The notes under the pieces were generated by a model. It worked only from the letters and a program-made list of their open reading frames with translations. It made no database searches and was not told the DNA's origin. A program made the position numbers and the translations under genes. From Candidatus Angelobacter sp. (GTDB lineage: Bacteria; Acidobacteriota; Terriglobia; Terriglobales; Acidobacteriaceae), in NCBI GenBank assembly GCA_025462835.1, contig JAOAPH010000019.1, positions 1 to 64,000 of the forward strand: 64,000 nt of DNA, written 5' to 3'. Of this stretch, positions 36,450 through 51,917 are shown in pieces (the stretch's first letter is position 1; each line of letters starts with the position of its first letter).

Positions 36450-38645
36450 TTGATCGGCGATTTCCAACTTGCAGACTGGCAGGTACAACCCCAGCTGAAC
36501 TGTGTCCGCCGAGGTGAGAAATCGATCCACGTCGAGCCGAAAGTCATGCAGGTCCTGGTCCAGTTGGCGGACCATCCTGACGAAGTGCTCTCCAAAGAAC
36601 AATTAATGCACGCGGTCTGGTCGGACACGTTCGTAGGCGATGAGGTTCTGACACGTTGTATCTCGGAAATCCGGCGTGCGCTGGAAGACGATGCCCGGGC
36701 TCCGCGGTTCGTGCAGACGATCCCAAAAGTGGGCTATCGGTTAATTGCGCCAGTGGACCGGCGGGACCTGCTCGCAGACTCACGTGCGACGAAACCTACC
36801 GCGGCTCGCTTGCCCGACGAGCGGAGCGAACCGCCGGCGCCCGCGATGGAAACTCCAGCAGCAGCCCCGTCACCTTCTACGATTGTAAGTCCCGGGCTCG
36901 GCCCCGTGATGGCGCTACGCTGGGCAGTGATCGCGTTCGTCGCGTTGGCGGTCCTGGCAGTTGGAACTTGGATTTTGCGGTCGCGCCGTCCTTTGCAGAC
37001 CGGCACCGGGGATTACCGCACGCTGCCCTTCACCTCGTATTCGGGATCGCAGACACAACCGGCGTTTTCGCCCGACGGGAACAAGATCGCGTTCGTGTGG
37101 AACGGCGAAAACGGCGGCCGGCAAAGTGTCTATGTAAAGGTCATCGGAACGGAGAATCCCGTAAGATTGACCTCGGGGCCAGGGGACGATTACAGCCCAG
37201 TGTGGTCGCCCGACGGTCGCTTTCTGGCGTTTTTGCGCTCGGCCGAGAACGGTCAGGGTCTCTATATTATTCCTTCCATCGGCGGGCCAGAGCGAAAGGT
37301 GGCATCGCGGTCGGGAGTGGCCGACAACAGCAGCCGCATGTCGGTCACGTGGTCTCCCGACGGGAAGCAGCTGGTGTTCACGGACGGGAAATCGACCCAA
37401 AGTCCGTCTTCCCTCTTCTCCTTGAACCTCGAAACGCTCGCAGTGCAACGCATTACGACTCCGGCCCCGTCGTGGGATGGCGACTACACTCCTGTGTTCT
37501 CGCCGGACGGCAAGCGCATAGCCTTCATCCGCGACGTCGAAGCGTCGCTGCGGGACGTGTACATCCTGCCGGCCGATGGCGGCGAGCCCACGCGTCTGAC
37601 CTCCGACAACCGGCAGGTCTCGGGGCTAGCATGGTCGAGCGACGGGACAAGCGTGATCTTCTCTTCTGACCGACGGGGCAAGTTTGCGCTATGGCGGGTG
37701 GCTGCGAGCGGCGGCGCGCCGGAGCGCCTGCCCGTCGGCACCGAAGGCGCATCCTATCCGGCGATCGCCCCGAAGGGTGACCGGTTGGCGTATGCGCAGA
37801 CTTCGGCGCAATGGAGCATCATGCGCGTGGTACTGGACACGGCCGGAAAGGCGAAGACCACGCGACTGCTGTCATCGACGGAACAGGATTCCGCACCCCG
37901 ATACTCGCCGGATGGAACGCGGATCGCGTTCCAGTCCTGGCGCTCGGGGACCCAGGAGATCTGGGTGTGTGCGAGCAGCGGATCGGGGCCGGTGCAGCTG
38001 ACATCGTTCAACGGGCCACTGACGGGAAGTCCGTCGTGGTCGCCGGATGGCCAGCAGATCGCATTCGACTCGCGACCAGAAGGACGTTCGCATATTTACG
38101 TGGTGTCAGTGGACGGGGGAGTACCACAAAAGGTGACCTCCGGCGACCAGAACGACATCCTGCCAACGTGGTCGCGCGACATGAAATCAATCTATTTCGC
38201 GTCGAATCGCAGCGGCGCGTGGGACATCTGGAAAGTTCCTGCGAACGGCGGAGAGGCGCGGCGGATGACCCGTCGTGGCGGTTTCATGGGCATCGAGTCC
38301 TTCGACAGCAAATGGCTTTACTACACGAAGGCGGACCTTTCGGGCCTGTGGAGGATTCCAGCTAACGGCGACAAGGAAGAACAGTTGCTGAACCAACCGA
38401 AGTCAGGATACTGGGGCTACTGGAGCGTGGCAAAGGACGGCATTTACTACTTGAATGATTCCAACGCTCCACCATCGATCGACTTTTTCGATCCATTGAC
38501 GAAGCGCGCACGGCACGTGCACATACTGGACCACATGCCGCCCGTGTACAACGGCCTAAGCGTCGCCGGGGATGGGAGGTCGCTGTTGTACACCGAGGCG
38601 ACCGACGCCGGAAGCCACATCACGCTGGTGGAACACTTCCGCTGA
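36450..38645 (+). CDS. Winged-helix DNA-binding membrane regulator with TolB-like propeller
   Basis: 731 residues from TTG 36450. Residues about 1-100 form an OmpR/CadC-type winged helix (VEPKVMQVLVQLADHPDEV, then FVQTIPKVGYRLIAPV). A Pro/Ala-rich linker and one TM helix at about 153-177 (WAVIAFVALAVLAVGTWIL) follow. Outside are PD40/TolB-type propeller blades, each with a variant of FSPDGxxIAF or WSPDG (about residues 205-635). This design lets a periplasmic ligand control DNA binding at the membrane without a separate kinase. The location, divergent from the Oar/GH operon, suggests that operon as target. The inducer may be an imported oligosaccharide, which is inferred. Confidence 0.9.
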   Translation: MIGDFQLADWQVQPQLNCVRRGEKSIHVEPKVMQVLVQLADHPDEVLSKEQLMHAVWSDTFVGDEVLTRCISEIRRALEDDARAPRFVQTIPKVGYRLIAPVDRRDLLADSRATKPTAARLPDERSEPPAPAMETPAAAPSPSTIVSPGLGPVMALRWAVIAFVALAVLAVGTWILRSRRPLQTGTGDYRTLPFTSYSGSQTQPAFSPDGNKIAFVWNGENGGRQSVYVKVIGTENPVRLTSGPGDDYSPVWSPDGRFLAFLRSAENGQGLYIIPSIGGPERKVASRSGVADNSSRMSVTWSPDGKQLVFTDGKSTQSPSSLFSLNLETLAVQRITTPAPSWDGDYTPVFSPDGKRIAFIRDVEASLRDVYILPADGGEPTRLTSDNRQVSGLAWSSDGTSVIFSSDRRGKFALWRVAASGGAPERLPVGTEGASYPAIAPKGDRLAYAQTSAQWSIMRVVLDTAGKAKTTRLLSSTEQDSAPRYSPDGTRIAFQSWRSGTQEIWVCASSGSGPVQLTSFNGPLTGSPSWSPDGQQIAFDSRPEGRSHIYVVSVDGGVPQKVTSGDQNDILPTWSRDMKSIYFASNRSGAWDIWKVPANGGEARRMTRRGGFMGIESFDSKWLYYTKADLSGLWRIPANGDKEEQLLNQPKSGYWGYWSVAKDGIYYLNDSNAPPSIDFFDPLTKRARHVHILDHMPPVYNGLSVAGDGRSLLYTEATDAGSHITLVEHFR

Positions 38646-39122
38646 TTCCCTCAGGCCAACCCGAAGGTGTGGTGTAGACCCCTCTCCACTTGGTAACAAA
38701 CCGGGCAGGTTACTGCCTTGCCCGGAGTGCATTCCGCGCAGACTCAGCGCACTGCTACGATGTGTACGTCATCGCTGCCACTGCAAAAAGACAAAGCCGT
38801 TGCAATGGATTCGGCAAGACCTAAGACCCACATAGCGTTCCGTGATAAATGACGACAGCATTGTGGTCGATCGAAAGCTCCGCGCCCTTGGTTGGCAATC
38901 CTTCATTATTGCAGGCGAATTGATTGAAGGTCATTGAGTTTGGCTGGGGGCGAGCACGACCAGGAGAGAAACCAATCGCATCCTGGCCAGAGGTGAAAAA
39001 CATAGTCTAAATGGTATGGAAATAACGCAGGTTGCTGCTTCCCTTTTTCTTGGGATTCCATTGAATTTGGAGGGAATATCTGCATTGTTTGAAACAGCTG
39101 CGGCCGGCTGTTTACAAGGTAA
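38646..39122. other. Intergenic region
   Basis: About 480 bases between convergent genes. A stem-loop follows the regulator gene. A minus-strand 60-codon frame (39003-38821) has no ribosome binding site or motif and was not called. Confidence 0.4.
38701..38725 (+). terminator. Stem-loop after regulator gene
   Basis: CCGGGCA and TGCCCGG pair perfectly, with an additional GG/CC step across a bulge, 56 bases after the stop. No T-run follows. Confidence 0.4.
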
Positions 39123-39812
39123 TCAAAAAATTAGATTGGAATTTGCGCTCACGGCGGCGAAAACAGCTGGAAGCTCGGAATCAACAATTCCTAAGAAGCA
39201 TTTCACGACTGCTGGATCAAACTGAGTACCGGAGGACTGAACCAGCCGACGCTTCGCCTCTTCCGTGGGTAAGCCTTTTCGGTATGGACGATTGGATACC
39301 ATGGCATCGAACGAGTCGATGACTGTGACAATGCGGGCTCCCAGGGGAATCTCGCTGCCGCGGAGCTTGCCGGGATAGCCGTTTCCATCAAAGCTCTCAT
39401 GATGGTGTAGCGTGATCAGGCTGGTCTGTGAAAGCGCTGGAAAAAGCCTAAGGACACCCCAACCGTATTCCGGATGCTTATTCATCAACGCGCGCTCGTC
39501 CTCAGTCAGAGGACCATTTTTGTTAAGAATGGCATCTGGAACGCCAATCTTTCCGATATCGTGTACGACCGCGGCCATCTCGATGTCGTGGAGGCTTTCT
39601 TCTGGGATGCCCAACTCCTGTCCCACACGCATGCCCCATTCGGCCAGCCGGGTACTGTGCACTCCAGTATTCAAATCCTTCAGATCAAGCAGTTGATGAA
39701 AGCCGCAGACCAGCGAGTTCAGGGTGCTGGAAAGCTCCTCCTCGAGCACCTTGACGTGCATGGACGATCTTGCTTCGAAGGGCCGGACCGTTGTTGGAAA
39801 TGCATTAATCAT
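39123..39812 (-). CDS. HD-GYP domain protein (probable c-di-GMP phosphodiesterase)
   Basis: 229 residues from ATG 39812, only 12 bases after the stop of the subtilisin gene, so it is likely in the same transcript. The HD site reads AAVVHDIGKIGVP. The extended GYP signature is HHHESFDGNGYPGKLRGSEI, followed by ARIVTVIDSFDAMVSNRPYRK. All metal ligands of an active HD-GYP domain appear present. Such enzymes hydrolyse cyclic di-GMP or related cyclic dinucleotides. There is no receiver domain or membrane helix. The N-terminal ~25 residues are unassigned. Its place at the end of the sigma/CHAT cluster could add second-messenger control, but this is inferred. Confidence 0.87.
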   Translation of the reverse strand: MINAFPTTVRPFEARSSMHVKVLEEELSSTLNSLVCGFHQLLDLKDLNTGVHSTRLAEWGMRVGQELGIPEESLHDIEMAAVVHDIGKIGVPDAILNKNGPLTEDERALMNKHPEYGWGVLRLFPALSQTSLITLHHHESFDGNGYPGKLRGSEIPLGARIVTVIDSFDAMVSNRPYRKGLPTEEAKRRLVQSSGTQFDPAVVKCFLGIVDSELPAVFAAVSANSNLIF

Positions 39813-39824
39813 TTCTAGTTTCGC

Positions 39825-41126
39825 TCACCGAATCCCCAGAGCGGCACGCCAGGCAGCTACAGCAGTGTAAGTGTTGAGGCGACCATGGTTGAGTTCCGCA
39901 GAGATCCAATCCGCTTGAGCTAATGAGGAAGATGCACTTGATTCCTTGACCGAGTTCGATACTTGCACAAGCAACGCCGCCGTGCCCGCTACCATAGGTG
40001 CGCTGAACGAAGTACCCCAACATGCTGCGTAAGTTCCGTAGGGATACATCGTGACTACGCCTTCACCAGGCGCGGCCATCCAAACCAAGTTGGAGCCATA
40101 GTTTGAGAACGAGGAGCGATTATCGCTGTTGTCTGTAGAGGCGACGCCCATCACATCAGGGTAAGCAGCCGGATAGACCAGGACAGCTTTGCCATCGTTG
40201 CCGGCTGAGGCGACAAGCACAACACCTTTTGACGCAACGCTCTTTACCGCATTGGATAATTCCTGCGATGAGGAAGCAAAACTAAAGCTCATGTTGACTA
40301 CGCTCGCCCCATTTTTCTGGGCATAGTAGAGCGCACGCATTACATCAGAGGCATAGCCGGATCCATCAACGCCGAACGCTTTCAACGGGAGGATTTTGGC
40401 ATTTGGCGCTACCAGGTGCACTACTCCAGCCACCATCGTGCCATGGCCAAATGCGGAGTAGTTGCCGCCATCGAGCACGGCAGCGGAGGATTGATCGAGT
40501 ACAGCGGCCGTTGACTGGTTTACATAAGCCGGCTGCGCACCGTCAAGGACTGCAGCGCTGGACTGCGTAACATCGCCCTTTTCGTCGGCTCCGCCCTTGT
40601 TGTGCATGAAGTCATACCCGGTCAGCAAGACAGGTTTCAAAGCCGGATGCGAAGGGTCCACGCCGGTATCAATGATTGCAACGATACCTGCGCCGGTCAC
40701 GCCATAGGCTGATTGCGTTTTGGCCAACTGAATCAATTGAGCCGCAGGTTGATTTACGTATCCGTGCCACACGGTGGAGCCGTAATACGACATGGGAGTT
40801 TGGTCGTACAGAGCGCTGGGTATATTGCTGGCCGTAGCTGACTGTACTTTCATCGTCTGATCGAGCTCAATGTCCACAATGCCCAGATTCAGCGAGAGAC
40901 TCTTTAACAGGGAGAGTGGGTTCAGCAGGTTCGTGGTGACCAGGAATACTTGGTTGTTTGGATCGCCGAGCCCCCATTGAACCGTGCAGCCCAACAGAAG
41001 GCAGCTTGATTTGAGATGCAACAGGCCAAGGCCATCGCGGACAATCAATCGCGTAGTGGCCGCACTCGGAGTGCTCAGAGCCACCATCATAAGAACCAAC
41101 GAAATAATATGTTTGAAGGTCTTCAT
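39825..41126 (-). CDS. Secreted S8 (subtilisin-like) serine protease with QSxAAVLD repeats
   Basis: About 433 residues from ATG 41126 (GGAG 6 nt upstream). The signal peptide (FKHIISLVLMMVALSTPSA) indicates export. The catalytic triad is complete: Asp near 153 (IVAIIDTGVD), His near 228 (AFGHGTMVAG) and Ser near 373 (WGTSFSAPMVAG). The oxyanion Asn is in VASAGNDG. A region of about 120 residues before the domain is a likely propeptide. Between Asp and His is an insert with three copies of QSxAAVLD (40470-40565), an unusual feature. It follows an anti-sigma-like gene by 90 bases, and the intergenic DNA shares a motif with the sigma gene upstream region. Its target is unknown. Confidence 0.9.
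   Translation of the reverse strand: MKTFKHIISLVLMMVALSTPSAATTRLIVRDGLGLLHLKSSCLLLGCTVQWGLGDPNNQVFLVTTNLLNPLSLLKSLSLNLGIVDIELDQTMKVQSATASNIPSALYDQTPMSYYGSTVWHGYVNQPAAQLIQLAKTQSAYGVTGAGIVAIIDTGVDPSHPALKPVLLTGYDFMHNKGGADEKGDVTQSSAAVLDGAQPAYVNQSTAAVLDQSSAAVLDGGNYSAFGHGTMVAGVVHLVAPNAKILPLKAFGVDGSGYASDVMRALYYAQKNGASVVNMSFSFASSSQELSNAVKSVASKGVVLVASAGNDGKAVLVYPAAYPDVMGVASTDNSDNRSSFSNYGSNLVWMAAPGEGVVTMYPYGTYAACWGTSFSAPMVAGTAALLVQVSNSVKESSASSSLAQADWISAELNHGRLNTYTAVAAWRAALGIR
40470..40565 (-). repeat. Triplicated QSxAAVLD coding repeat inside the subtilisin
   Basis: QSSAAVLD, a spacer, then QSTAAVLD directly followed by QSSAAVLD. The codons differ between copies, so the repeats are old and kept by selection on protein sequence. 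They lie just before the catalytic His and probably form a surface loop. Confidence 0.75.
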
Positions 41127-41174
41127 TTCTAACTCCATCCAATCGCCCCGCAATTGAAACATTCCGCTCGGGCG

Positions 41175-41199
41175 ACTTCAAATTACTGTGGTAACCGCT
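41175..41199 (-). promoter_or_regulatory. Candidate shared promoter/operator motif before the subtilisin gene
   Basis: Read on the minus strand, this starts AGCGGTTACCACAG and continues TAATTTGAAGT. About 20 of 25 positions match the motif 33 bases before the sigma gene, with one gap. A GTTACCAG/GTTACCAC tandem repeat overlaps its start. It could be the promoter recognised by the local sigma factor. Confidence 0.4.
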
Positions 41200-41216
41200 G
41201 GTAACACTTGTAGTAA

Positions 41217-41828
41217 TTACTTCCCGACATCGGGAAATTCAGGCACTCGGACGCGGATTTTCTTTTCACAGATATCCAGTTCAAGATGGAGATCCTCCAC
41301 CGGAGAAAAGACCATATGGAACTCGCCCATATCATTGGTTTGTGTCTGCTGTATTATTCGTTCCCCGCAACATAAAGCCACTGGCATAGTCGTCTGCTTT
41401 CCAGAGGTCGATTCTTGTATCTGCCCTATCAGGCTGACTTCGTCAGTCGTTGGCGCCTTTTCCACACGCAAATCGATGAACCGTTGGCCGTGTTGGTACA
41501 GCAGCTGACGGCAGACATTGCTCGAACTGCGCACGCCTGCGGTGAGAGCTTGCTGGGCTGTGTCAAATACCAAGTTCGCCATTAGCTCACCCAGGAAACT
41601 TCCGGCCGGCTTAGAAGGCACGAACTGGGATCGTGCAATTCGTAATGCATCACTCGGGGGAGCGTAATTCAGGTCGTCGGCAGCTGCCTTGGTCACACTA
41701 GACCAGAGTTGGAACGAGGCGCGGCACTCTTCGCAATTTTCAAGGTGCTCTTTCATACGTGCAGATACGTCAGCCGTCTGCACATCCCGCACATAATCGA
41801 TCCAATCCTTAGTTGTGAAGTGCTTCAT
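41217..41828 (-). CDS. Soluble zinc-finger anti-sigma-like protein
   Basis: About 203 residues from ATG 41828 (GGAGGAAATG upstream; an ATG one codon earlier is equivalent). The N-terminus has the zinc-binding anti-sigma (ZAS) pattern: a His at residue 3, then HLENCEEC with His 28, Cys 32 and Cys 35. This matches the HxxxCxxC core that holds ECF sigma factors. Unlike most anti-sigma factors it has no membrane helix. A linker leads to a beta-rich C-terminal domain with LIGQIQESTSG and MGEFHMVFSPVEDLHLELD, like a transthyretin-type fold. It lies between the CHAT protease gene and the subtilisin gene, so cleavage by the CHAT protein is an attractive, unproven idea. Confidence 0.75.
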   Translation of the reverse strand: MKHFTTKDWIDYVRDVQTADVSARMKEHLENCEECRASFQLWSSVTKAAADDLNYAPPSDALRIARSQFVPSKPAGSFLGELMANLVFDTAQQALTAGVRSSSNVCRQLLYQHGQRFIDLRVEKAPTTDEVSLIGQIQESTSGKQTTMPVALCCGERIIQQTQTNDMGEFHMVFSPVEDLHLELDICEKKIRVRVPEFPDVGK

Positions 41829-41932
41829 CATTTCCTCCGCTGGGGGGTGGCGGTTCCAGACTTGGCCCATTTGCTGCTTCTGGGAAAAGGAGTAACCAGA
41901 GTTCAAAAAAATATAGGCGACAGAAACTTTTT

Positions 41933-44803
41933 TTAGATCCGGCCGGTGAGAACGAAGGGGGCCCAATAGTAAGGATGGGGATGTTTCTTACGTAAGTCAT
42001 TGATTCCTTGGAGAGCTGCTGGATAACTCATCCCCTTCAGTCGGCGTCCGTAGAAGGATGCCATGAAATCAGCAGTACTCTCATCATCTACATCCCAAAG
42101 GGAAAGCAAAAGAGAGCCAGCGCCAGCTGCGAAAAGGCCTCGGACAAGCCCTAATAATTCATCTCCACCGGTGACCACATTTAAACCGGTGGCGCAGCCG
42201 CTCAACGTGATCAACTCAGCGGGAAGCCGATATTGGTACAAATCGTAGAGGCTCAGCACGGAATCGCCCAGTTTGATGCCGGAAAAAAGTGGATTGTCTT
42301 GCCGAAAAAAGCCATGCGTTGCGATATGGATGATCCGACTCGACAGCCCAAGCGTGCGCAAAGCAGCAGCGGTGGCCTGAGGGCCTATTAATAGATTCGA
42401 GTCTGGCATGGTGCTGGCGATAGCTTCCGCTTCCTGCTGTATGAACGGTGCCGCGGCGTCGGGCACGCCCATGATCAGAGCGCCGTGCTGATCATCGAAA
42501 GTTCTCGCCTGGCACTTTGCGAAGACCGTCGCACTGGGAGCGTTTGACAATGTAAAGCAATCGATCAGGTACTCGTCTTCGTCCATCAATGCCTGGAAGG
42601 GGATGTAGTGAAGAAACTCGTGAGGCACAATGACCAAGTGCTTTGCCGCGTGCAACAGCGGACGCACTGGTGCGATTAACTCTTTATAGAGATCGCGCAA
42701 GTGCGCCTGCGTAGCCTCCAGCAACGGTTGCTCAAAGTTCTTCACATACTCGCGTCCAAAACGAAATTTGGCGAGTTGAAATTGCAACAGGCGCATGGAC
42801 TTCTGCACCCGCGTAGTCAGGGTAATGGGAACAATCTGAAGGTCGTCGTTCCACAAGACCGCGACCAAAATTTGATCTTTGACGCGGTAGTACTCCAGCA
42901 GGATCGAGTCTGGGGGAAGCTGAGCGCGAATCTCGGCGATACTGCAGGAAACAGCGGGTGCCCCCACAGATTCAGCTTCCGCAGTCGGCAATTCGCGCAG
43001 CACGCGGACGAATTCCGCCTCATGTTGTCTGGCTAGTACTTGGAGCTCGTCGATCCGCGCAGACGTTGACTCTGCACCCTGCAATTGTTCATTTTCGATC
43101 CTGTGGTAATACCAATTCAATTCCTCCCGCAATCTCCCGATCTGCCTTACCAGATCACTTTGGCTCTCGTGAGGTGCAGAGGCCCGCGAGCCAAGTCGCG
43201 ACATCAGATCCACCAAGCTGCGGGATTTTGCCTGTTCTATGTACTGAAACGCCTCCTCGGTCCGGGCCGGCGATGGATCTAACAAGCAAAGATCCACCAA
43301 TCCTTCATATACCTCGAGCCTGTTCTTCATGAAGGCCATCTTCAATTCCTCACCCCGCAAACTGCTACGTAGAACCTCAAGGGCTACGCGTGCTTGCTGG
43401 TATGCGGAATAAGACTGTTCAGGACGATTTGAGAGCGAAAATATCTGGCCAAGCAAAACATGGACTTGGTATTTGAGATTTGGAGATTCGATCCTTTGCA
43501 AGAGCGCCTCGGCTTCCAAGCACTCACGTTCGGCAGAGGCCAAGTCTGAAACGCTGATCTGCAGTCGCGCCATCAACAGCCGGCACAGCACAGCCTTGCC
43601 GATCAAGGGAGATGTCTGAAAGAACTCAAGAGCAGATTGGCAGAGCCGGCGCGACTCGAAATAGCGGCCCTCATTAAAGAGCACCAGTGCTTGATAAAGG
43701 TCGATGAGCGAGGGCCAGACCTGGTTCTGCTCAGCGACAAAAGTTTCCCGGGCTCGCGCGAACATTTCAAGGGCGTGAACGGCTTTGCCTTGCTGGCCGT
43801 ATGCAATGGCCAGGTTGGCCATGCATTTCGCCTTCTCGTAACCCATCCCTTGTTTTTCAAAAAGGGAGATTCCGGCCTGTGCAATCTCTGCCGCCTCCTC
43901 AGCAAGGTTGAGTTCAAGATAGATTTCAGAGAGATCGAGATGACAAAGAGCGAAGTGATAATTGTCGCCGCTTTTGCGGCAGGTCTCGCGGGTGGAACGC
44001 AGCCGATCAATGGCAATGCTATAGTCCCCGCGTAAGTAATAGAGCCACGCGATGTTGTAATCCGCCTGGCTGACAAGCAATGGCATGTTGTGCTGTTCCG
44101 AAAACTGGCGGGCCTCTTGGTAGACATCCATCGCCCTGCGAAAGTCATTCAAGCTGATCAGGCACATAGCCATGTTGTGCAAGGCTACGGCTACACCTTC
44201 CGGATCTTTTTGCCGGTTGGGAAGAAAGTAGCGGTAAGCATGCTCGTAGCGCTCAAGCGCTTCCTGCAGCCGATCCTGCCGATGCAAGATGTTGCCGGCG
44301 TTCAATTCAAGACGTGCCAAACGCCAATGATTACGTTCCGCTAAAAAGATCCGCCGTGCTTCTTCGCTGGCTTGGAGTGCCTGTTGGTATTCGCCCAAAA
44401 GTAGATGGGGCTGAATCGAGGAACTCAATGTGCGCGCCAACTCTGAGGCTTGCCCTTGACGACGAAAAATTTTCATCGCCTGTTCGTGATGATTGATCGC
44501 TTCACGGTGCTGTCCAGCGATGTAAAGAGCGTTGGCTTTTGCGCGGAGGCTCTGCGCCAGAGCACTAGGATTGGTGAGCCGCCGGGCAAGATCTACCGTG
44601 AAATCGGCTATTACGAGGGTTTCATGAACGTTGATACGGGCTTGTTGGCGAACAACCTCAGTGAGCCACTCGACGACATCTGCGCGCACCAGAGCACGGT
44701 TGGCATCCAGAAAGTTTTTGCGCGCCGTCTCCGTTTCCAAACGGGCCAATTTCGGGAGAAGCGCAGTGCGCTCGACTGAGATTTTCTTTTCGTCGCTGCT
44801 CAT
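41933..44803 (-). CDS. TPR-CHAT domain protein (putative caspase-like protease)
   Basis: About 956 residues from ATG 44803, which overlaps the sigma factor stop (ATGA). Residues about 60-530 are helical TPR repeats (for example GEYQQALQASEEARRIF and GNILHRQDRLQEALERYEHA). A Gln/Glu-rich coiled region spans about 540-650, and the C-terminal third is a CHAT domain. Its catalytic dyad is intact: His near 830 in RIIHIATHGFF and Cys near 870 in LITLSGCATG. The conserved GGDELLGLVRGLFAAGAGSL and SLWDVDD motifs follow. CHAT proteins are caspase-fold peptidases or scaffolds. TPR-CHAT proteases in type III-E CRISPR cut an inhibitor of an ECF sigma factor. Here the direct link to sigma and anti-sigma-like genes suggests a similar job. 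Confidence 0.92.
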   Translation of the reverse strand: MSSDEKKISVERTALLPKLARLETETARKNFLDANRALVRADVVEWLTEVVRQQARINVHETLVIADFTVDLARRLTNPSALAQSLRAKANALYIAGQHREAINHHEQAMKIFRRQGQASELARTLSSSIQPHLLLGEYQQALQASEEARRIFLAERNHWRLARLELNAGNILHRQDRLQEALERYEHAYRYFLPNRQKDPEGVAVALHNMAMCLISLNDFRRAMDVYQEARQFSEQHNMPLLVSQADYNIAWLYYLRGDYSIAIDRLRSTRETCRKSGDNYHFALCHLDLSEIYLELNLAEEAAEIAQAGISLFEKQGMGYEKAKCMANLAIAYGQQGKAVHALEMFARARETFVAEQNQVWPSLIDLYQALVLFNEGRYFESRRLCQSALEFFQTSPLIGKAVLCRLLMARLQISVSDLASAERECLEAEALLQRIESPNLKYQVHVLLGQIFSLSNRPEQSYSAYQQARVALEVLRSSLRGEELKMAFMKNRLEVYEGLVDLCLLDPSPARTEEAFQYIEQAKSRSLVDLMSRLGSRASAPHESQSDLVRQIGRLREELNWYYHRIENEQLQGAESTSARIDELQVLARQHEAEFVRVLRELPTAEAESVGAPAVSCSIAEIRAQLPPDSILLEYYRVKDQILVAVLWNDDLQIVPITLTTRVQKSMRLLQFQLAKFRFGREYVKNFEQPLLEATQAHLRDLYKELIAPVRPLLHAAKHLVIVPHEFLHYIPFQALMDEDEYLIDCFTLSNAPSATVFAKCQARTFDDQHGALIMGVPDAAAPFIQQEAEAIASTMPDSNLLIGPQATAAALRTLGLSSRIIHIATHGFFRQDNPLFSGIKLGDSVLSLYDLYQYRLPAELITLSGCATGLNVVTGGDELLGLVRGLFAAGAGSLLLSLWDVDDESTADFMASFYGRRLKGMSYPAALQGINDLRKKHPHPYYWAPFVLTGRI

Positions 44804-45423
44804 GGTCGCCCGAACTCCATTGCTTCCAGGCTGGCGCGCAGCTTGTCGAGACAACGGCCACGAATGAACCCGATCGAGCCCACTGCTATGCCTAAGTTCT
44901 CGGCGACATCCTTATAAGGACGAGGTGGGTCTTCATAGAACAGGGTATGGATCAGCTCTCGGCATCTCGGCGAAAGCTTTGCGATCGCTTCCCTCAACAT
45001 TTGGTCTTTCTCGAGTTCGATGAGCAGATTATCCGCGAGCTTCTCGATCGGAGCCGCTGCCTCTTGCGTTTCCTCGTCTGCGTGGTTCCAGCGTTGCTGT
45101 TGCTTGTGCCAATGAAAACACTTGTGGGCTGTGACCTTTATCAACCATCCCGAGAGTGCCTGTGGATCACGCAGCTTAGGCAGTTCTGAAAGCAACTCAG
45201 CACAGACAGCCTGAAAAATCTCGGCAGCGTCCGCCTGCGGAAGACGGTGCTTAATGGGAATTGAGAAAATGAGGTTTTTATATTTGTCTAAAAGTGCGGT
45301 CCAAGCCTCTTCTTTTCCTGCCAGGCAGCCTTGTACAAGACGATCATCAGTCCAATAAGGCGAACCAGCCTCAGCCACGGATGGGCTTGAAGGGGCTTTT
45401 GGCTTAGGCTGAGGCTTGGGCAT
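44800..45423 (-). CDS. ECF-like sigma-70 family RNA polymerase sigma factor
   Basis: 207 residues from ATG 45423 with only a weak ribosome binding site. After a Pro/Lys-rich N-terminal 20 residues comes sigma region 2 (CLAGKEEAWTALLDKYKNLI, then LRDPQALSGWLIKVTAHKC), which contacts the -10 element and core enzyme. Region 4 follows (AIAKLSPRCRELIHTLFYE, then YKDVAENLGIAVGSIGFIRG), the -35-binding helix-turn-helix. Region 3 is absent, as in ECF factors. The stop overlaps the CHAT start, and an anti-sigma-like gene lies downstream. This is the usual genetic sign of a regulated sigma factor. The upstream 55 bases contain the motif also found before the subtilisin gene. Confidence 0.9.
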   Translation of the reverse strand: MPKPQPKPKAPSSPSVAEAGSPYWTDDRLVQGCLAGKEEAWTALLDKYKNLIFSIPIKHRLPQADAAEIFQAVCAELLSELPKLRDPQALSGWLIKVTAHKCFHWHKQQQRWNHADEETQEAAAPIEKLADNLLIELEKDQMLREAIAKLSPRCRELIHTLFYEDPPRPYKDVAENLGIAVGSIGFIRGRCLDKLRASLEAMEFGRP

Positions 45424-45456
45424 CGGTGAGTCAGCTTACATCATTCAATTCCAAGC

Positions 45457-45480
45457 ACTTAAGTTACTTTTGTCACCGCT
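45457..45480 (-). promoter_or_regulatory. Candidate shared promoter/operator motif before the sigma gene
   Basis: On the minus strand it begins AGCGGTGACAAAAG and ends TAACTTAAGT, 33 bases before the sigma start. The first two bases (AG) are also the end of the transporter gene's TAG stop. It matches the sequence before the subtilisin gene at about 20 positions. This would fit autoregulation by the sigma factor. Confidence 0.4.
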
Positions 45481-47239
45481 ATTGAAGGAATAGCTCGTCC
45501 GCGTTCCACAAAACATACGGATCCAAAATCGAAGGATTAAAGTTCCCAACTTTATTCTTTGCGCCCACTAGGATGTTGGGGCTCGCCAGGCAGATGATTG
45601 GCAGATTATCAGCCACCAGTTGCTGCACCCGGTCGTAAAGCCGCTTTCTGGCCGGAACTTTGAGCGTGGAGAGCTGCTGCTTCATCAGACCATCTATCTC
45701 AGCTTCCCACGGAGTAGCAGGCTTGTTCTCGCCCAGGTTCCACAGGTGATTGCTTCCTGTCGAAAGCCATACATTCATCTGCGGGTTGGGATCGACATCT
45801 CCGCCTCCGAGACCCAAAACCGCGGCTTCATACTCATGAGTTTGAAAGACGCGATCCAGGAGCGAGCGGAATTCTAGCGGAACCACCTGAGCCTTGATGC
45901 CGATCTGCTTGAGATCGTCTTGAATAATGGTAGCGATCTGACTTCGCTGCGCATTGGACGAACTTGTCAGGATACTGAACTCGACGGGAGCGCCTGACGC
46001 AGACACCAGCGTGCCGTCCTGCTTCCAGGAGAATCCGGCAGTGCGCAGCATCTCACGAGCCTTGTCTGCGGATCGTGGCGCAAGCCGCACATTCGGATTG
46101 AGCCACAACTTGTTTGCAGGATTTACATGAGTCACCAGAGAGGTGGCGCGGCCGCGGTAGACAAGTTTCGTGATCGAATCCCTATCGATTGCAGCAGAAA
46201 TCGCCCGGCGAAACTCAACTTTGCGGAACCAATCTTGTTTTGCAGCAACACTTCCAGCGCCCTTCGGCAGTACTGAATTCAAGTTGAAAAAAAGAAAGTT
46301 GTATTCAAGTCCTGGACCCAGGTCGTTCATGTGAAATGCACGCGCTTGCTGGTCGCGTTCCAGCACCGCATAGTTGTCCGCGCTCATTCGGCTAATGAGG
46401 TCCGTCTCGCCCGATTGAAACCGGATTACCTGTGCATCTTCGCTGGGCACAAAAAGGAAGGTGATCTCATCCAAATAAGGAAGTCTTTTCTTTTCCTTGT
46501 CTATCTTCCAGTAATAGGGATTTCGCTCGATCGTGGCGCGCTGCCCAGGCAGATATTCCTTCAGACGGAAGGGGCCAAGTCCGGCCATTTCAGATGCAAT
46601 CGCGGAGATGCTCCACGCTTCGCCAATCTTTCCTTGTTCGTAAGTCTTCAATAGGAGATGCCGGGGCAGGATCGCGATATTGTCGAAGATTCGTTCCGCG
46701 GCGGCATAGGGTTGCGCCAGCTGAAAAGCCACCGTGTAAGCGTCAACCTTCGTGACTGCGATCGGCTTGTCGCCGACGACCAGCAAATCACGCTGTGGAG
46801 AGTGGAGTTTTTCGTCGAGATAAACAGCGAATGAAAATACAACGTCATCGGCATCGAATGGCGCCCCGTCGGAGAATCGCACTCCACGTCTCAATTGCAA
46901 TGTGTAGCGCAAACCATCCTTCGAGACCTTCCAGGATTTCGCCAATGCGGGCTCAGTGTTCTGAGTAGCCCGATTTATGTGTATGAGATCAGCGTTGAGC
47001 CTGCCTGTGATTTCTCGCGAGCTGCCGTCCACCAGCGTTACCGGGTTGAAGGTTTTTGGCTCTGAGCGCAAAGCGATGGCCAATCTTCCGCCATACTTGC
47101 CTGATTGAGCAGTGGAAAGTGCCAGCTCTTCTCCGGGACGCACCGGCTGCGGAGGCACTATGGCCCACGCGCATGCCAACTGGAGTGCGATGACGCCGAG
47201 TCCAAGGATGCTTCGAACTTTTAATTTAAGAGCGCACAT
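45479..47239 (-). CDS. ABC transporter substrate-binding protein, oligopeptide type
   Basis: 586 residues from ATG 47239. A hydrophobic N-terminus (SILGLGVIALQLACAWA) suggests export. It has the SBP_bac_5 layout: RLAIALRSEPKTFNPVT, then LAKSWKVSKDGLRYTLQLR with RGVRFSDGAPFDADDVVFSF (the family signature), GTGP-like GLGPFRLKEY, and FRRAISAAIDRDSI. Members bind peptides, or sometimes nickel or sugars, for import. It is the last of five transporter genes, with permease genes just upstream, and ends 55 bases before the sigma gene. Its place beside a subtilisin cluster suggests uptake of digestion products, which is inferred. Confidence 0.92.
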   Translation of the reverse strand: MCALKLKVRSILGLGVIALQLACAWAIVPPQPVRPGEELALSTAQSGKYGGRLAIALRSEPKTFNPVTLVDGSSREITGRLNADLIHINRATQNTEPALAKSWKVSKDGLRYTLQLRRGVRFSDGAPFDADDVVFSFAVYLDEKLHSPQRDLLVVGDKPIAVTKVDAYTVAFQLAQPYAAAERIFDNIAILPRHLLLKTYEQGKIGEAWSISAIASEMAGLGPFRLKEYLPGQRATIERNPYYWKIDKEKKRLPYLDEITFLFVPSEDAQVIRFQSGETDLISRMSADNYAVLERDQQARAFHMNDLGPGLEYNFLFFNLNSVLPKGAGSVAAKQDWFRKVEFRRAISAAIDRDSITKLVYRGRATSLVTHVNPANKLWLNPNVRLAPRSADKAREMLRTAGFSWKQDGTLVSASGAPVEFSILTSSSNAQRSQIATIIQDDLKQIGIKAQVVPLEFRSLLDRVFQTHEYEAAVLGLGGGDVDPNPQMNVWLSTGSNHLWNLGENKPATPWEAEIDGLMKQQLSTLKVPARKRLYDRVQQLVADNLPIICLASPNILVGAKNKVGNFNPSILDPYVLWNADELFLQ

Positions 47240-47256
47240 AATTTTTTACGGGTCCT

Positions 47257-48252
47257 TCAGATCGGAATGAATTCTAACCTTCGCTGCAATGCGTTAGCCA
47301 TAAGAAAGTAGGCTAGAAAGAGTGGGATCAAACTGATTCCTGGGATGAACATCCACCAATAGGACGTCAGCACGTGATATTGCTGTAAAGCTCCAAGCAG
47401 ATTTCCTAGGCTGGCTGCCGGTTCGCCGACTCCGAGTCCGAGGAAAGACAAAGTGATCTCGGAAAGTATGTATTGAGGGACTAACAGTGCCGCCTGTGCA
47501 AGCACGACTCCATACACCTGGGGCAAGATGTGACGCCGCAGAAGATAGAAGTCTGTGGCCCCAAGGTTTCGTCCTACTAAAACAAAGTTTCTTTGTTTAC
47601 CGCTGAGCACTACGCCGCGAATCAGCCGCGCAGGCCGCGCCCAGCCTATCGCGCCAATGAGCGTGACCAGCAATAAAAATGTCTGCTCCGGACTGAGATG
47701 GAGCGGCAGAAAAGCCCGGACTGCCAAGAGCAAATAGATCCAGGGAAGTGCTAAGAATAACTCTGCCAAGCGCATCAGCACGGTATCTACGATCGAACCG
47801 TAAAAACCCGCGGCCATTCCCACGATCAAGCCGACGATCAAAGCAAGTGTTGTCGCCAACAATCCGGCAAACAGCGACAGCCTTGCTCCAAACAAAAAGC
47901 GCGACAATTGATCACGTCCCAGGCCGTCAGTACCAAGCAACGAGATTCGCCCCGGAGCGTCCACTCCAAACAGATGCGACTTAGTTCCACTCACGAAAAA
48001 ACGAACCGCGTACGTGTGACTGCAATCTTCCTCATACCCGCCGGAACTGTCTTCGACCTCCTTCCTTGCACACACAAAAGGACGAATACCGAAACGGCCA
48101 GCCACGTCCACGAAATGTAACTTCGTCGGCGGCGCATAGGACGCCGCGCGATCCTGTTCAGCTTCGTCATAAGGAGCAAAGAATCCACAGAATAAGAAGA
48201 TGAAATGGATTGCTACCAGAACTGCCAACCATCGTCGTAAGGGACTGTTCAT
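47257..48252 (-). CDS. Oligopeptide ABC transporter permease (DppC/OppC type)
   Basis: 331 residues from ATG 48252, overlapping the stop of the partner permease by 4 bases. The N-terminal helix and a periplasmic domain with VDAPGRISLLGTDGLGRDQLSRFLFGARLS mark the OppC type. The EAA-like cytoplasmic loop for ATPase contact is near IRGVVLSGKQRNFVLVGRNLGATDFYLLRRHILPQ (key residues Gly, Ala, Leu). Five or six membrane helices are visible. It forms the transmembrane channel with the other permease. The periplasmic insertion (about residues 45-95) includes a VCARKEVEDSSGG loop with two Cys, larger than usual. Confidence 0.9.
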   Translation of the reverse strand: MNSPLRRWLAVLVAIHFIFLFCGFFAPYDEAEQDRAASYAPPTKLHFVDVAGRFGIRPFVCARKEVEDSSGGYEEDCSHTYAVRFFVSGTKSHLFGVDAPGRISLLGTDGLGRDQLSRFLFGARLSLFAGLLATTLALIVGLIVGMAAGFYGSIVDTVLMRLAELFLALPWIYLLLAVRAFLPLHLSPEQTFLLLVTLIGAIGWARPARLIRGVVLSGKQRNFVLVGRNLGATDFYLLRRHILPQVYGVVLAQAALLVPQYILSEITLSFLGLGVGEPAASLGNLLGALQQYHVLTSYWWMFIPGISLIPLFLAYFLMANALQRRLEFIPI

Positions 48253-49220
48253 CCGGCGCTCTTCGTTCTGATCCGCGGATCACTGGCAAACAACAGCAGA
48301 TCAGAAATAAACACACCCGCTTGGAGCAAGAGCGTGGACACCAGCACCGCACCGATCACAACGTAAAGGTCTCGTGCTAGTACAGATTCCAGGAGAAGCG
48401 GACCCAGACCAGGCCAACTCATCACGATCTCAGTGATCAATGCCGCGCCGAGCAGATTTGCGATGGAGAGCCCCAGCAACGAGATCAACGGATTGAGTGC
48501 GGCCGGAAAGACATGGCGAAATAACAATCTGCCGCGTGGTATCCCATGTGCTCGCGCCGCTCTCACAAAAGGCGACTGCAATGTTTCAACCATCGTGGCT
48601 CGAATGTGCCGGATCAGGACAGGAACGATACTGAGCACCAACACTGTGATTGGAATCGCGGCATGTAAGGCGATGTCCTTTAGCTTTTCAGGCCATCGCA
48701 TCTCCTCATATCCGAGTGAGGTCATGCTGCCGACTGGAAAGTACCCGGTGCGCAAAGCAAACCAGAGAAAACTCAACGAAATGAGCAGATCCGGAGTTAT
48801 CAGCAAAGTTGTATTGCCTAGGCTGACCGCGCGGTCCTCCCATCTGTTCTGCTTTGCGGCGCTGATCACACCTATAGGAATCGCGACCAACCACGCCAGC
48901 AAGGTAGCGGGCAGTGTGAGCAGCAATGTGTTTGCTACTCGATCACCGAGCAACCTGGTAACGGGCACGTTATAGGCAAAAGAAAAACCGAAGTCCCCGT
49001 GCAGTGCCGCACCCAACCAGTGCGCATAGCGAACCGCTATCGAATCGTCGAAACCATACTGGTGTCGCAACGCAACAAGAGTTTCTGGCGAGATTTGCGG
49101 GTTGAGCCGAATCTCGGAAACGTAATCACCCGGAGCCAGCGCAAACAAGAGGAACGCGAGAACAGAGATTCCAATGAGGAGGAAAATTCCGTGGACCAAG
49201 CGGCTAAAAAGGAATCGCAT
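48249..49220 (-). CDS. Oligopeptide ABC transporter permease (DppB/OppB type)
   Basis: 323 residues from ATG 49220, beginning one base after the upstream ATPase stop. The N-terminal FLFSRLVHGIFLLIGISVLAF is the typical first helix. Then come LRHQYGFDDSIAVRYAHWL and LGDFGFSF-like HGDFGFSF, and AWLVAIPIGVISAAKQN. The EAA loop is VRAARAHGIPRGRLLFRHVF with its conserved Gly. Six membrane helices in all. It pairs with the following OppC-type permease, and the ATGA overlap implies matched production. Confidence 0.92.
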   Translation of the reverse strand: MRFLFSRLVHGIFLLIGISVLAFLLFALAPGDYVSEIRLNPQISPETLVALRHQYGFDDSIAVRYAHWLGAALHGDFGFSFAYNVPVTRLLGDRVANTLLLTLPATLLAWLVAIPIGVISAAKQNRWEDRAVSLGNTTLLITPDLLISLSFLWFALRTGYFPVGSMTSLGYEEMRWPEKLKDIALHAAIPITVLVLSIVPVLIRHIRATMVETLQSPFVRAARAHGIPRGRLLFRHVFPAALNPLISLLGLSIANLLGAALITEIVMSWPGLGPLLLESVLARDLYVVIGAVLVSTLLLQAGVFISDLLLFASDPRIRTKSAG

Positions 49221-49221
49221 C

Positions 49222-50064
49222 TTAAGTCTGGCTCTCGAACGAAAGCATCGCGTTGATCAACGCTTGCGTTTGTGGATGTTCGGGCCGCTGCAACAACCTC
49301 GACGAAAGACCCCGCTCAACGATCCGACCTTCACTCATCACGGCAATCTCGTCCGCAAGGTAGCCGGCCAATTCCATATCGTGCGATATATAAATGAGCG
49401 CGAGGCGGCGCTCGGCTTGAACTGTGAGCAGCAGATTAGCAATATCGGCTTGCACGGACATATCCAAGCCAGAAAGCGCTTCATCTAGGATGATAACTTC
49501 AGCATCCGCCGCCAACGCCCGCGCGATTGCCAATCGTTGCCGCTGACCTCCACTGAACTGCATGGGCGACCTGCTTATTGAATCGACAGGCAATCCCACG
49601 CGCTCCATCAAGTCGATTGCCCGTTGCTGTTGCTCTGCCCTGCTACCGATTGCTCGAATGACCATCGGCTCGCAGATCACTTGCCCGGCTGTGAATGTTG
49701 GATTAAACGAGGTTGCGGCATCTTGAAAAACTAGCTGCAATTTGGACCGGACTTCGCGCAAGCTTGTACCGGAAAGTGAAAACAAGTCCGTACCATTCAT
49801 CAACACCTTGCCTGAATCTGCTTCCAACAGCCGACTGATGCACATGCCAAGCGTTGACTTACCAGAGCCAGACTCGCCCACAAAAGCGATGCTTGACCCA
49901 GCTTCAAGAGTGAAGCTGACTGAGTCCAGCGCTTTCACGTGAACCTTCGCACCAAACGGCCACCTGCTCCGAACATATGTTTTGCTCAGGTCCGTCACTT
50001 GGAGCAGGGGTTTATCTGCTGAATGTTTGATAGTGTCCTCTTCGGAAAGCGAAGAATGCCACAT
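49222..50064 (-). CDS. Oligopeptide ABC transporter ATPase (DppF/OppF type)
   Basis: About 280 residues from ATG 50064. The frame is open to 50169, but that would overlap the preceding gene. Walker A is GESGSGKST, signature SGGQRQRLAIARAL, Walker B VIILDEALSGLD, and switch His in IYISHDMEL. PLLQVTDLSKTYVRSR at the start is typical of the F subunit. It lacks the usual C-terminal Cys-rich/OppF extension, ending soon after QTQALINAM, so it is short (usual about 320). It energises uptake together with the D subunit. Confidence 0.9.
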   Translation of the reverse strand: MWHSSLSEEDTIKHSADKPLLQVTDLSKTYVRSRWPFGAKVHVKALDSVSFTLEAGSSIAFVGESGSGKSTLGMCISRLLEADSGKVLMNGTDLFSLSGTSLREVRSKLQLVFQDAATSFNPTFTAGQVICEPMVIRAIGSRAEQQQRAIDLMERVGLPVDSISRSPMQFSGGQRQRLAIARALAADAEVIILDEALSGLDMSVQADIANLLLTVQAERRLALIYISHDMELAGYLADEIAVMSEGRIVERGLSSRLLQRPEHPQTQALINAMLSFESQT

Positions 50065-50131
50065 TAGCGCCGAGTTCGGAACTCTTTTTTGAAGGCTTTG
50101 AGCTCCGCAAGCTGTCGCAAGCCATCCTTCA

Positions 50132-50956
50132 TCAAGAGCTCGCGCGGGCTGAATGCACCATTTGTCCACGTGAATTCAGCAAACTCTTTGTGTACGGATG
50201 CGAAGGACGGCCAAGGACTTCTGTAGCCAATCCCTGTTCTACGATTTTTCCTGAATGCATGACGAGGATGCGATCCGCAAATTTCGCGAGAATCGCAGGG
50301 TTGTGAGTTATCAGGAGAAATGCGATGTGACGCCGCTCCTTCAGCTCAGATAATAATGTAAGGATGTCGGCTTGTACGGTGGTATCCAGCGACGATGTCG
50401 GCTCGTCTGCAATAACCACCTGCGGTCTGCATGCCAGCGCTTGAGCAATCGCAACCCTTTGACATTGACCACCGCTCAGCTCGTGTGGAAATGCATCGTA
50501 AATCTTCTCAGCATCTAGCCGCACCTCGGTCAGCATCGCGAGCGCCTCGTCTCGGCACTTAGAACTATTCCATGCACGATGAGCACGGATCACCTCCGCG
50601 ACCTGAACGCCCACCCGCATCACCGGATTCAAAGCTATTCGTGGCTCCTGAAAGATGGTGGAGATAGCCGCCCCACGAATCGCTTGCAGCTCTCTCTCAT
50701 TCAGCCCATTCAATTCCCTGCCAGCAAATCTGATCGAGCCACCTGTGATGCTCCCTCCCGGAGGCAACAGCCCGAGAATAGCCGACCCGAGCGTAGTCTT
50801 CCCGGATCCTGACTCGCCCAGCACCCCGACTACTTCACCAGGAAAGACCCCAAAACTGGCGTGGTCTACGGCTATTACTTCCACTACAGGCGCCTGGAAG
50901 CGGACTGTCAAATTCTCGACAAGCAATACTGGGTCAGCGGAACCCGACTTAGTCAC
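50132..50956 (-). CDS. Oligopeptide ABC transporter ATPase (DppD/OppD type)
   Basis: 274 residues from GTG 50956. Walker A is LGESGSGKTTLG, signature LSGGQCQRVAIAQAL, Walker B VVIADEPTSSLD, and switch His ITHNPAIL. It is first in the operon ATPase-ATPase-permease-permease-binding protein. No ribosome binding site precedes the GTG, but a TATATT box lies about 9-14 bases upstream, as expected of a leaderless mRNA. It is shorter than typical OppD (about 330) because the C-terminal oligopeptide-transporter domain is brief. Confidence 0.9.
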   Translation of the reverse strand: MTKSGSADPVLLVENLTVRFQAPVVEVIAVDHASFGVFPGEVVGVLGESGSGKTTLGSAILGLLPPGGSITGGSIRFAGRELNGLNERELQAIRGAAISTIFQEPRIALNPVMRVGVQVAEVIRAHRAWNSSKCRDEALAMLTEVRLDAEKIYDAFPHELSGGQCQRVAIAQALACRPQVVIADEPTSSLDTTVQADILTLLSELKERRHIAFLLITHNPAILAKFADRILVMHSGKIVEQGLATEVLGRPSHPYTKSLLNSRGQMVHSARASS

Positions 50957-50964
50957 GAATGTAA

Positions 50965-50970
50965 TATATG
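50965..50970 (-). promoter_or_regulatory. Possible -10 box of a leaderless transporter transcript
   Basis: TATATT on the minus strand ends about 8 bases before the GTG start of the first transporter gene, with no ribosome binding site between. No good -35 box was found. Confidence 0.25.
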
Positions 50971-51074
50971 AGAAGGCGCTGAGAAGATAAAGCTAAGAAA
51001 GCCTAAACTGACGAGTGCAGCATTCCGCATATGCGGGCGCCTTCCCGATGCGGCAAGGTATTCGGGAACCTTCG

Positions 51075-51917
51075 TCACACTGCAGCACGGATTTGTTCCG
51101 GAAGGACGAAGTCTTCCATCGCCTTTGCGAACCCCTCCTCCTCGTTTGAGGCAGTCACGAAGGTGGCTGATTTCTGGACCTCAGGATTGGCGTTTCCCAT
51201 CGCGATACTCACACCGCTCTTGCGAAACATCAATACGTCGTTTGGCATGTCGCCGATAGTTGCAATCTCTTCCGGCGAAATCTTGAGCAGCTCTGAAGCG
51301 ATGGTGACGACCTCGCCCTTGTTGGCATTGGGATGTGTCACATCGAGATAGTAAGGTTGCGAACGCGCTGCTGACACATGTGTTCCGCATGCCTGTTGCA
51401 CATCCTTCTCGCAGCGAGCAACAGCTTCGTAATCGTCACTGACGCCCACGATCTTCGCAACTTGTCCGAAAAGACCGTCAAAGCTCGTTGTGATCGTTGG
51501 GGGGAACTTCACCGTCCACTGTTCTCGCGCGACATGCGGCGCTTGCGGATCGCGGATGAACCATTCGCGTTCGGTGTAGAGCCACACGTCCAATTTGTGC
51601 TGCTCGATGATTTGCACCGCCTGCTCCGCAGCTTCTGCCGGCAACAGCTTCTTTGATACAACGGACAGGTCCGGACGAATTATCACTCCGCCATTGAAAC
51701 CGGCGATGAATTCAGCGTGTTGGAGGACTTCAACCAACATCTTCATCCCTAGCGGGGGCCGACCGCTGGTGACTGCTAGGGCGATTCCCGCGCGTCGCAT
51801 CTTGTCGACCGCTTCAATCGCCCTTTGCGTCAGGACTTTTTCTTGAGTTACCAGCGTTCCGTCCACATCGGCGATGACAAGGCGAACAGCTCGGGATTTC
51901 GGAGTCGCAGCAGTCAC
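51075..51917 (-). CDS. HAD-superfamily Cof-type sugar-phosphate phosphatase
   Basis: 280 residues from GTG 51917, with GGAGG 6 nt upstream. HAD motif I is VIADVDGTLVT (nucleophile Asp), motif II VTSGRP, the Lys of motif III lies in the region before motif IV, and motif IV is IATIGDMPNDVLMF. The C2B cap domain (about residues 85-195) fits the Cof/YbjI group, which dephosphorylates sugar phosphates or flavin intermediates. It is divergent from the transaldolase-gnd-zwf genes, so a hexose- or pentose-phosphate substrate is plausible but not shown. Confidence 0.88.
   Translation of the reverse strand: MTAATPKSRAVRLVIADVDGTLVTQEKVLTQRAIEAVDKMRRAGIALAVTSGRPPLGMKMLVEVLQHAEFIAGFNGGVIIRPDLSVVSKKLLPAEAAEQAVQIIEQHKLDVWLYTEREWFIRDPQAPHVAREQWTVKFPPTITTSFDGLFGQVAKIVGVSDDYEAVARCEKDVQQACGTHVSAARSQPYYLDVTHPNANKGEVVTIASELLKISPEEIATIGDMPNDVLMFRKSGVSIAMGNANPEVQKSATFVTASNEEEGFAKAMEDFVLPEQIRAAV

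Follow-up and report, generated by a model that had tools for sequence, protein, structure and literature searches.

What signal does a caspase-like protease receive, and which protein might it cut, when its gene overlaps that of an ECF-type sigma factor and is followed by the genes of a putative anti-sigma factor and a secreted subtilisin? The question is posed by a locus in Candidatus Angelobacter sp., a member of the Acidobacteriota, an abundant soil phylum, and specifically by the 64,000-nucleotide stretch of contig JAOAPH010000019.1 that was analysed here (hereafter the window). The original prediction read the locus as the sigma switch of type III-E CRISPR (Craspase) operating without CRISPR: an internal signal sensed by the TPRs would activate the CHAT protease, which would cut the anti-sigma factor and release the sigma factor to transcribe the operon. 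The evidence assembled below tips somewhat towards a different answer, namely that the operon is an imported-peptide signalling circuit ending in a protease-controlled ECF sigma factor. As such, it has the look of a peptide-signalling system not reported before, one that would switch genes through protein cutting.

The operon lies entirely on the minus strand, in the order importer, sigma factor, TPR-CHAT protein, zinc-finger protein, subtilisin and HD-GYP protein. Its first part (45479-50956), with genes joined by overlaps or short gaps directly upstream of the sigma gene, encodes a complete OppDFBCA-type importer: an OppD-like ABC ATPase (50132..50956; PF00005, E 2.4e-28), whose gene is the first of the operon and overlaps the next; an OppF-like ABC ATPase (49222..50169; PF00005, E 7e-32); the Opp/Dpp permeases B (48249..49220; PF00528 and PF19300), kept upstream of sigma-CHAT, and C (47257..48252; PF00528), also conserved; and a peptide-binding protein of SBP family 5 (45479..47239; PF00496, E 1e-85). 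Next come the ECF-type sigma factor (44800..45423; TIGR02937 sigma70-ECF, E 2.4e-20), for which the family models recognize only the Sigma70 regions 2 and 4, and the TPR-CHAT protein of 956 residues (41933..44803), whose ATG at 44803 forms the ATGA overlap with the sigma gene that had been foreseen. The zinc-finger protein (41217..41831) is followed by the subtilisin of the S8 family (39825..41162, with the likely start codon at 41126; PF00082, E 2e-39), which has a signal-peptide-like start, an I9-like prodomain and an intact D165/H240/S385 triad, and by an HD-GYP protein of the c-di-GMP phosphodiesterase type (39123..39812; PF13487 (HD_5), E 4e-39) with the motifs HDIGK and HHESFDGNGYP. The HD-GYP gene is found in some clades and is conserved in only part of the phylum; its product is a probable output of the system. 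The five genes of the original prediction, including a secreted protease and an HD-GYP protein, were all recovered at their stated coordinates on one strand, with short gaps except for the 101 nucleotides between the CHAT and zinc-finger genes, which hold a conserved promoter-like motif. The prediction fell short as to the extent of the operon, having missed both the upstream importer and a set of octapeptide repeats in the subtilisin. Rfam models gave no match in window positions 38000-53000, and a reading as a defence system was set aside, since PADLOC matched nothing beyond generic models of subtilases and, weakly, Cas3g HD. Downstream, a convergent gene on the plus strand (36450-38645) codes for a protein that combines a winged-helix DNA-binding domain with PD40 propeller repeats.

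The TPR-CHAT protein is of the caspase-like protease type. Its CHAT domain (PF12770, E 2e-59) carries the His/Cys dyad that the original prediction had placed near residue 870, at H830 and C870 when translation starts from the ATG at 44803, and both residues are invariant across 26 orthologs. The domain is distantly related to Csx29 (NCBIfam Csx29, E 7e-10, 38 bits against a cut-off of 300) and matches the Craspase structures PDB 8d9g, 7x8a and 7zoq at E about 1e-7. In Craspase, cutting of Csx30 by the protease has been proposed to relieve the inhibition of a sigma factor (PMC10028731). The operon resembles that system (Cas7-11, Csx29, Csx30 and CASP-sigma) in placing a TPR-CHAT protease, with a homologous CHAT domain, next to an ECF sigma factor and the presumed inhibitor of that factor; it differs in the far larger TPR domain, in the ZAS type of the inhibitor and in the built-in peptide importer and repeat-bearing subtilisin. 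In line with the earlier claim, no direct repeats of at least 20 nucleotides, and hence no array of them, were found in window positions 30000-56000, and no Cas7-11 (gRAMP) or other Cas gene occurs in the conserved block from the importer to the HD-GYP gene. The notion of a Craspase without CRISPR finds support in the gene order, the ZAS-like anti-sigma candidate and its loss together with sigma, the promoter-like motif and the distant relationship to Csx29, but calls for revision as to the signal and the role of the subtilisin that it proposed.

The candidate inhibitor probably starts at position 41831, after a GGAGG, giving a protein of 204 residues in place of the 249-residue ORF obtained mechanically. 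It carries the motif H29-x3-C33-x2-C36 together with an upstream H4, all four residues being invariant, and has no evident membrane segment. In keeping with the earlier description of a soluble, HxxxCxxC anti-sigma-like protein, it looks like a ZAS factor, although the similarities are weak: zf-HC2 at E 9.5e-4 (below the Pfam cut-off), ChrR in its SigE complex by Foldseek at E 4e-3, and RsiW and RslA by profile search at E 0.004 and 0.012, respectively. The same profile, run against PDB sequences, found RsiW and RslA and no similarity to Csx30. An AlphaFold2 model (pLDDT 87, pTM 0.57) displays four helices (residues 7-70), a weak linker and a beta-sandwich (86-195). The protein shares with the ZAS factors ChrR, RsiW, RsrA and RslA the HxxxCxxC motif with its upstream His, the four-helix N-terminal domain and the ECF sigma neighbour, and with ChrR also the solubility and two-domain layout. 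Unlike them, it has a distinct C-terminal beta-sandwich that is conserved throughout the family, and the proposed trigger of its release is a CHAT protease, where theirs is a metal, redox or membrane-protease signal.

The distribution of the zinc motif speaks to the function of the N-terminal domain. Among 98 proteins of the family, 81 have both the motif and a nearby sigma gene and five have neither, these five being partly related loci and so not five independent losses; away from contig edges, none has the motif without the sigma factor. A further five have a nearby sigma gene and no zinc motif, and seven lie at contig edges. At one locus (L074) the sigma gene is reduced to a fragment and the zinc domain is gone. 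This joint loss supports the N-terminal domain as the putative sigma-binding part. Four relatives without the zinc finger (L074, L093, L094 and L068:2544-3026) keep the C-terminal beta-sandwich, and an S8 gene adjoins three of the four.

Where the CHAT protease might act on this protein is suggested by the coil between its domains (residues 91-106), a candidate cleavage site with its invariant R101. The paralogs lacking the zinc finger nevertheless keep the R101 motif with no sigma factor to release, so R101 may not be the site after all. The retention of the conserved LVFDS/AGVR loop in proteins unable to bind sigma would also fit if CHAT had a target other than the anti-sigma factor, or a binding role only, with the peptide-bound TPR-CHAT protein releasing or destabilising the anti-sigma factor by a partner switch. 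Cleavage sites of CHAT proteases are, moreover, poorly predictable, and Craspase orthologs cut a site that is not conserved (PMC11106740). Yet a pure partner switch would have no need of the invariant His/Cys dyad, and this alternative is judged to be rather unlikely, although it deserves a hearing. The reading preferred here keeps the anti-sigma factor as the protein that CHAT would cut.

The genes that the liberated sigma factor would transcribe can be sought from the 101-nucleotide gap upstream of the zinc-finger gene. There, a bipartite promoter-like motif with fixed spacing, cCTATATTTTTt-N13-CCCTTATt (also written CCTATATTTTT-N14-CCCTTAT), was found and set down as a matrix of 82 sites out of 98 upstream regions. 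The window's instance (41885..41917, minus strand, 32.5 bits) is the sole match above 8 bits within 26 kb. Over all loci analysed, there are 93 matches above 20 bits, most of them training sites, against none with the reversed matrix, and about 27 matches above 18 bits fall elsewhere. Among these are ones that precede the importer operon (L180 and L082), a second S8 gene (L126) and the gene of a small secreted protein (L126, L142, L202 and probably L139 and L140). A strict form of the motif has eight matches in 30 operon-bearing genomes, seven of them in the CHAT-zinc-finger gap, and none in 30 genomes of the family without the operon. From this distribution it can be inferred that the operon's ECF sigma factor reads the motif, and the original proposal that sigma transcribes the operon, the subtilisin gene included, gains from the presence of a common promoter-like motif ahead of the anti-sigma and subtilisin genes. 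In gp2 Acidobacteriota, the motif precedes, upstream of CHAT, a conserved secreted protein of about 145 residues (the QAKDAPAYEKGVL region), a likely regulon member, while at one further position (L234, G059:C68:13659-13689) a strict match lies outside the operon and is followed by no obvious long ORF. Known types of ECF promoter (GGAAC-N-CGTC and similar) upstream of the sigma, zinc-finger and S8 genes were mostly near expectation, one looser form upstream of sigma reaching 12 occurrences against 3.6 expected; they were dropped once the CCTATATTTTT-N14-CCCTTAT motif had emerged.

None of this is peculiar to one genome, for the arrangement recurs far beyond chance. Matches to the CHAT protein at E < 1e-30 occur in 33 of 150 genomes of the family, of which 30 hold close orthologs, nearly all adjoining the zinc-finger gene, and orthologs at E < 1e-150 occur in 22 of 297 genomes from across the phylum. 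A scan of GTDB species genomes yielded 79 named loci, every one titled as from Acidobacteriota, spanning gp1, gp2, gp6, gp13, Terriglobia, Bryobacterales/Solibacter and Thermoanaerobaculia. By neighbourhood comparison, the block of importer, sigma, CHAT, zinc finger and S8, with or without HD-GYP, recurs at CHAT identities of 40-77%, and in many loci of other Acidobacteriota families the order is sigma, zinc finger, CHAT and S8. Thirty of the 150 family genomes, along with dozens of named Acidobacteriota contigs, show the recurrence of gene order on which the original prediction had staked itself. The importer mostly travels with the rest: among the 79 loci with enough flank for the count, 65 carry parts of the transporter immediately ahead of sigma-CHAT, and in 59 of these the two permeases are present as well as the binding protein; the other 14 have none directly upstream, some of these having parts elsewhere nearby. 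One contig (L167) carries two complete, adjacent sigma-CHAT-zinc finger-S8 operons, and one genome has two more, distant CHAT-domain genes (G000:C225, L091, and G000:C150, L092) lacking a sigma or S8 context.

The repeats in the subtilisin indicate what such an importer may carry. Between its catalytic Asp and His, the window's protein has three copies of an octapeptide, QSSAAVLD (40542..40565), QSTAAVLD (40494..40517) and QSSAAVLD (40470..40493), all on the minus strand. In 78 of 82 CHAT loci, the octapeptide of the S8 protein occurs two or more times in identical form, 38 distinct octapeptides being represented; exact repeats are absent from the remaining four and from several distant loci. 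The number of copies per protein ranges from 2 to 16, and in the gene with 16 copies all differ in DNA while 15 are identical in protein. In the first 34 S8 genes, the copies within a gene have a pS of 0.75, near saturation, and a pN of 0.007, and the mean difference is 0.12 of 8 residues within proteins against 2.75 between them. Because the expression used for the search holds parts of the unit constant, these figures count too few degenerate copies, but positions 4-5, which it left free, behave alike. Gene conversion was rejected as the cause of the identical copies, since synonymous sites are near saturation and even the window's own S8 gene contains no DNA repeats of at least 20 nucleotides.

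These arrays set the protein apart from other secreted S8/I9 subtilisins, with which it shares the fold, prodomain and triad; its AlphaFold2 model (pLDDT 90) matches pro-subtilisin, with the fold and the Asp/His/Ser triad present. The octapeptides lie in the insert between Asp and His, at the prodomain junction, or in both, the latter junction being the location in other families, with QTSQAFID, QISHAFLD, QRSLAFID and QRSQAFID. The arrays also track the operon. A DNA pattern for tandem octapeptides is found in 22 of the 150 family genomes, each of which has the CHAT operon, and in 6 of the 297 genomes from across the phylum, each one belonging to the 22 that have a CHAT ortholog, with no match in any genome for a reversed-pattern control. 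In other Acidobacteriota families, three loci (L270, L271 and L275) have an S8 gene near sigma, zinc finger and CHAT whose prodomain bears the repeats SWSVGQ, SWAIGH or SWAVGR, possibly a second class of peptide.

The octapeptide behaves as a code that belongs to the genome rather than to the individual subtilisin. Nine loci have two S8 genes with repeats, and in every one of them the pair has one octapeptide in common, against a probability of 0.04 that random loci share one. In one clade with paralogs S8a and S8b, identity between species is 72-95% for a with a and 76-96% for b with b but only 60-66% for a with b, so the duplication predates speciation; the octapeptide nonetheless goes by genome (QSTTSILD, QSTAGILE and QSTSTVLE) and not by orthology. 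Unlinked S8 genes match as well (L093 with L072, QSTVGVVD; L094 with L074, QSTAGVID), and the octapeptide of one locus (L101, QSSAAILD) agrees with that of the second CHAT operon in its genome and differs from that of the first. The two operons of L167 differ, with QSTVSLLN and QSTVAFLD. To judge from these comparisons, such sharing within genomes is explained by a shared recognition partner, and not by recent duplication or gene conversion.

Which protein that partner might be was approached through co-evolution, in tests whose 49 and 73 loci are related and may retain some phylogenetic structure. Partial Mantel tests on 49 loci (78 in a first version), controlled for the divergence of the sigma factor, the permeases and the CHAT C-terminus, give r of about 0.2-0.44 between the octapeptide and windows of the CHAT protein starting at residues 24-221. 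Values are near zero for most of CHAT 340-930, for the permeases and for sigma, and 0.29, as expected, for S8 itself; the binding protein was dismissed as the main co-evolving receptor, its whole-protein partial r being only 0.13. A test on tree branches, covering 73 loci and 68 octapeptide changes, finds r 0.405 (p 0.001) at CHAT 24-230, r 0.325 (p 0.003) for 230-340 and a weak r 0.207 (p 0.047) for 480-640, with no signal for 340-480 or 640-956. RapF, a receptor of peptide pheromones, matches residues 95-278 at E 3.5e-7, other TPR proteins matching equally well or better. Together, the co-evolution and the RapF match make the N-terminal TPRs (about residues 24-340) the best candidate for the receptor site of the octapeptide. 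Given this co-evolution and the presence of a peptide importer in the operon, the subtilisin more probably supplies a peptide signal that is then imported; the earlier view of it as a mere output of a switch driven by an unspecified internal signal appears unlikely on both counts. Weighing against the peptide reading are the 14 of 79 loci with no importer part directly upstream, the loci whose S8 protein has no exact repeats and the five proteins beside a sigma gene that lack the zinc ligands.

A rival explanation builds on that earlier view: the octapeptides act inside the subtilisin, through folding, self-inhibition or substrate-like occupation of the active site, while sigma, CHAT and anti-sigma make up a switch that answers to stress through an unrelated signal within the cell, with S8 only as its secreted output. 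Such a role would suit repeats that lie near the prodomain or between the catalytic Asp and His and have some predicted secondary structure, in a partly structured insert that is the least certain internal stretch of the model (pLDDT about 60-76), and parts of S8 outside the repeats also co-vary with the octapeptide. It sits poorly, however, with a unit whose copy number and position vary as its sequence stays identical, with paralogs that share their genome's octapeptide, with the octapeptide's tracking of the TPRs, but not the protease domain, of a cytosolic protein, and with a peptide importer as part of the operon; this alternative is considered unlikely. Still less can be said for the octapeptide as a homotypic (amyloid- or beta-zipper-like) recruitment motif, with S8 repeats binding each other or an extracellular partner and the TPR co-variation indirect, which would fit identity within genomes and divergence between species but is very improbable, as it leaves the importer and the TPR co-variation without a role and as the single-copy pattern, of whose matches not all were translated, clusters in 30 operon genomes only in S8 genes and is otherwise scattered as singles.

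The imported-peptide reading finds its closest parallel in the RRNPP(A) systems, in which an exported precursor is matured, imported by Opp and bound by a cytosolic TPR receptor, some precursors holding tandem pheromones, with subtilisin-type proteases to mature them (PMC11343458, PMC9765709). The operon resembles Rap-Phr, NprR, PlcR and ComR in that the TPRs of RapF match the co-evolving region of its CHAT protein, and Opp genes form part of it. It departs from them in that a CHAT protease replaces the HTH or the Rap 3-helix bundle (Pfam recognizes TPR and CHAT domains only, with neither of these effector domains), in that the proposed precursor is the subtilisin itself and in that RRNPPA proteins are reported from Firmicutes, as against the Acidobacteriota here. 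Most simply read, the operon couples an RRNPP-like cycle (PMC11343458, PMC9765709) with an output of the Craspase kind (PMC10028731), and the circuit so conceived works like Craspase plus RRNPP signalling, yet is a member of neither family.

In such a circuit, the secreted subtilisin would double as a pro-pheromone, from which proteolysis, by the subtilisin itself or another protease, would set free the repeated octapeptide (here QS[S/T]AAVLD). Entering through the OppDFBCA-type ABC transporter, the octapeptide would be bound by the TPRs at the N-terminus of the cytosolic TPR-CHAT protein, comparably to the binding of Phr-type peptides by the TPRs of Rap and NprR, and binding would change CHAT activity in one direction or the other. 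Active CHAT would inactivate the ZAS anti-sigma factor, probably by a cut between the ZAS domain and the beta-sandwich. The sigma factor, which is presumed to contact the anti-sigma factor, would then be free to transcribe from the promoter ahead of the anti-sigma, subtilisin and HD-GYP genes and, in some lineages, also the importer operon or other secreted proteins. More pro-pheromone would furnish positive feedback, and more anti-sigma factor negative feedback.

Extended to the phylum, the proposal becomes one of import-based peptide quorum sensing, in which the subtilisin is a multi-copy pro-pheromone, a caspase-like receptor cuts the anti-sigma factor to free the ECF sigma factor, the octapeptides are species-specific and orphan subtilisins bear the same code; this wider claim is held to be evenly poised. 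A search of open-access papers returned no sigma/CHAT/anti-sigma operon tied to peptide signals and no description of peptide pheromones in Acidobacteriota. Cognate and non-cognate peptides can be predicted from the sequences, so the reading is directly testable with synthetic octapeptides. If it is true, caspase-like proteases would act as signal receivers tied to imported peptide pheromones, joining two themes that have been separate; the sigma switch of Craspase would have a relative free of CRISPR; and there would be a hint at the signals that the large TPR domains receive in CHAT proteins of this kind.
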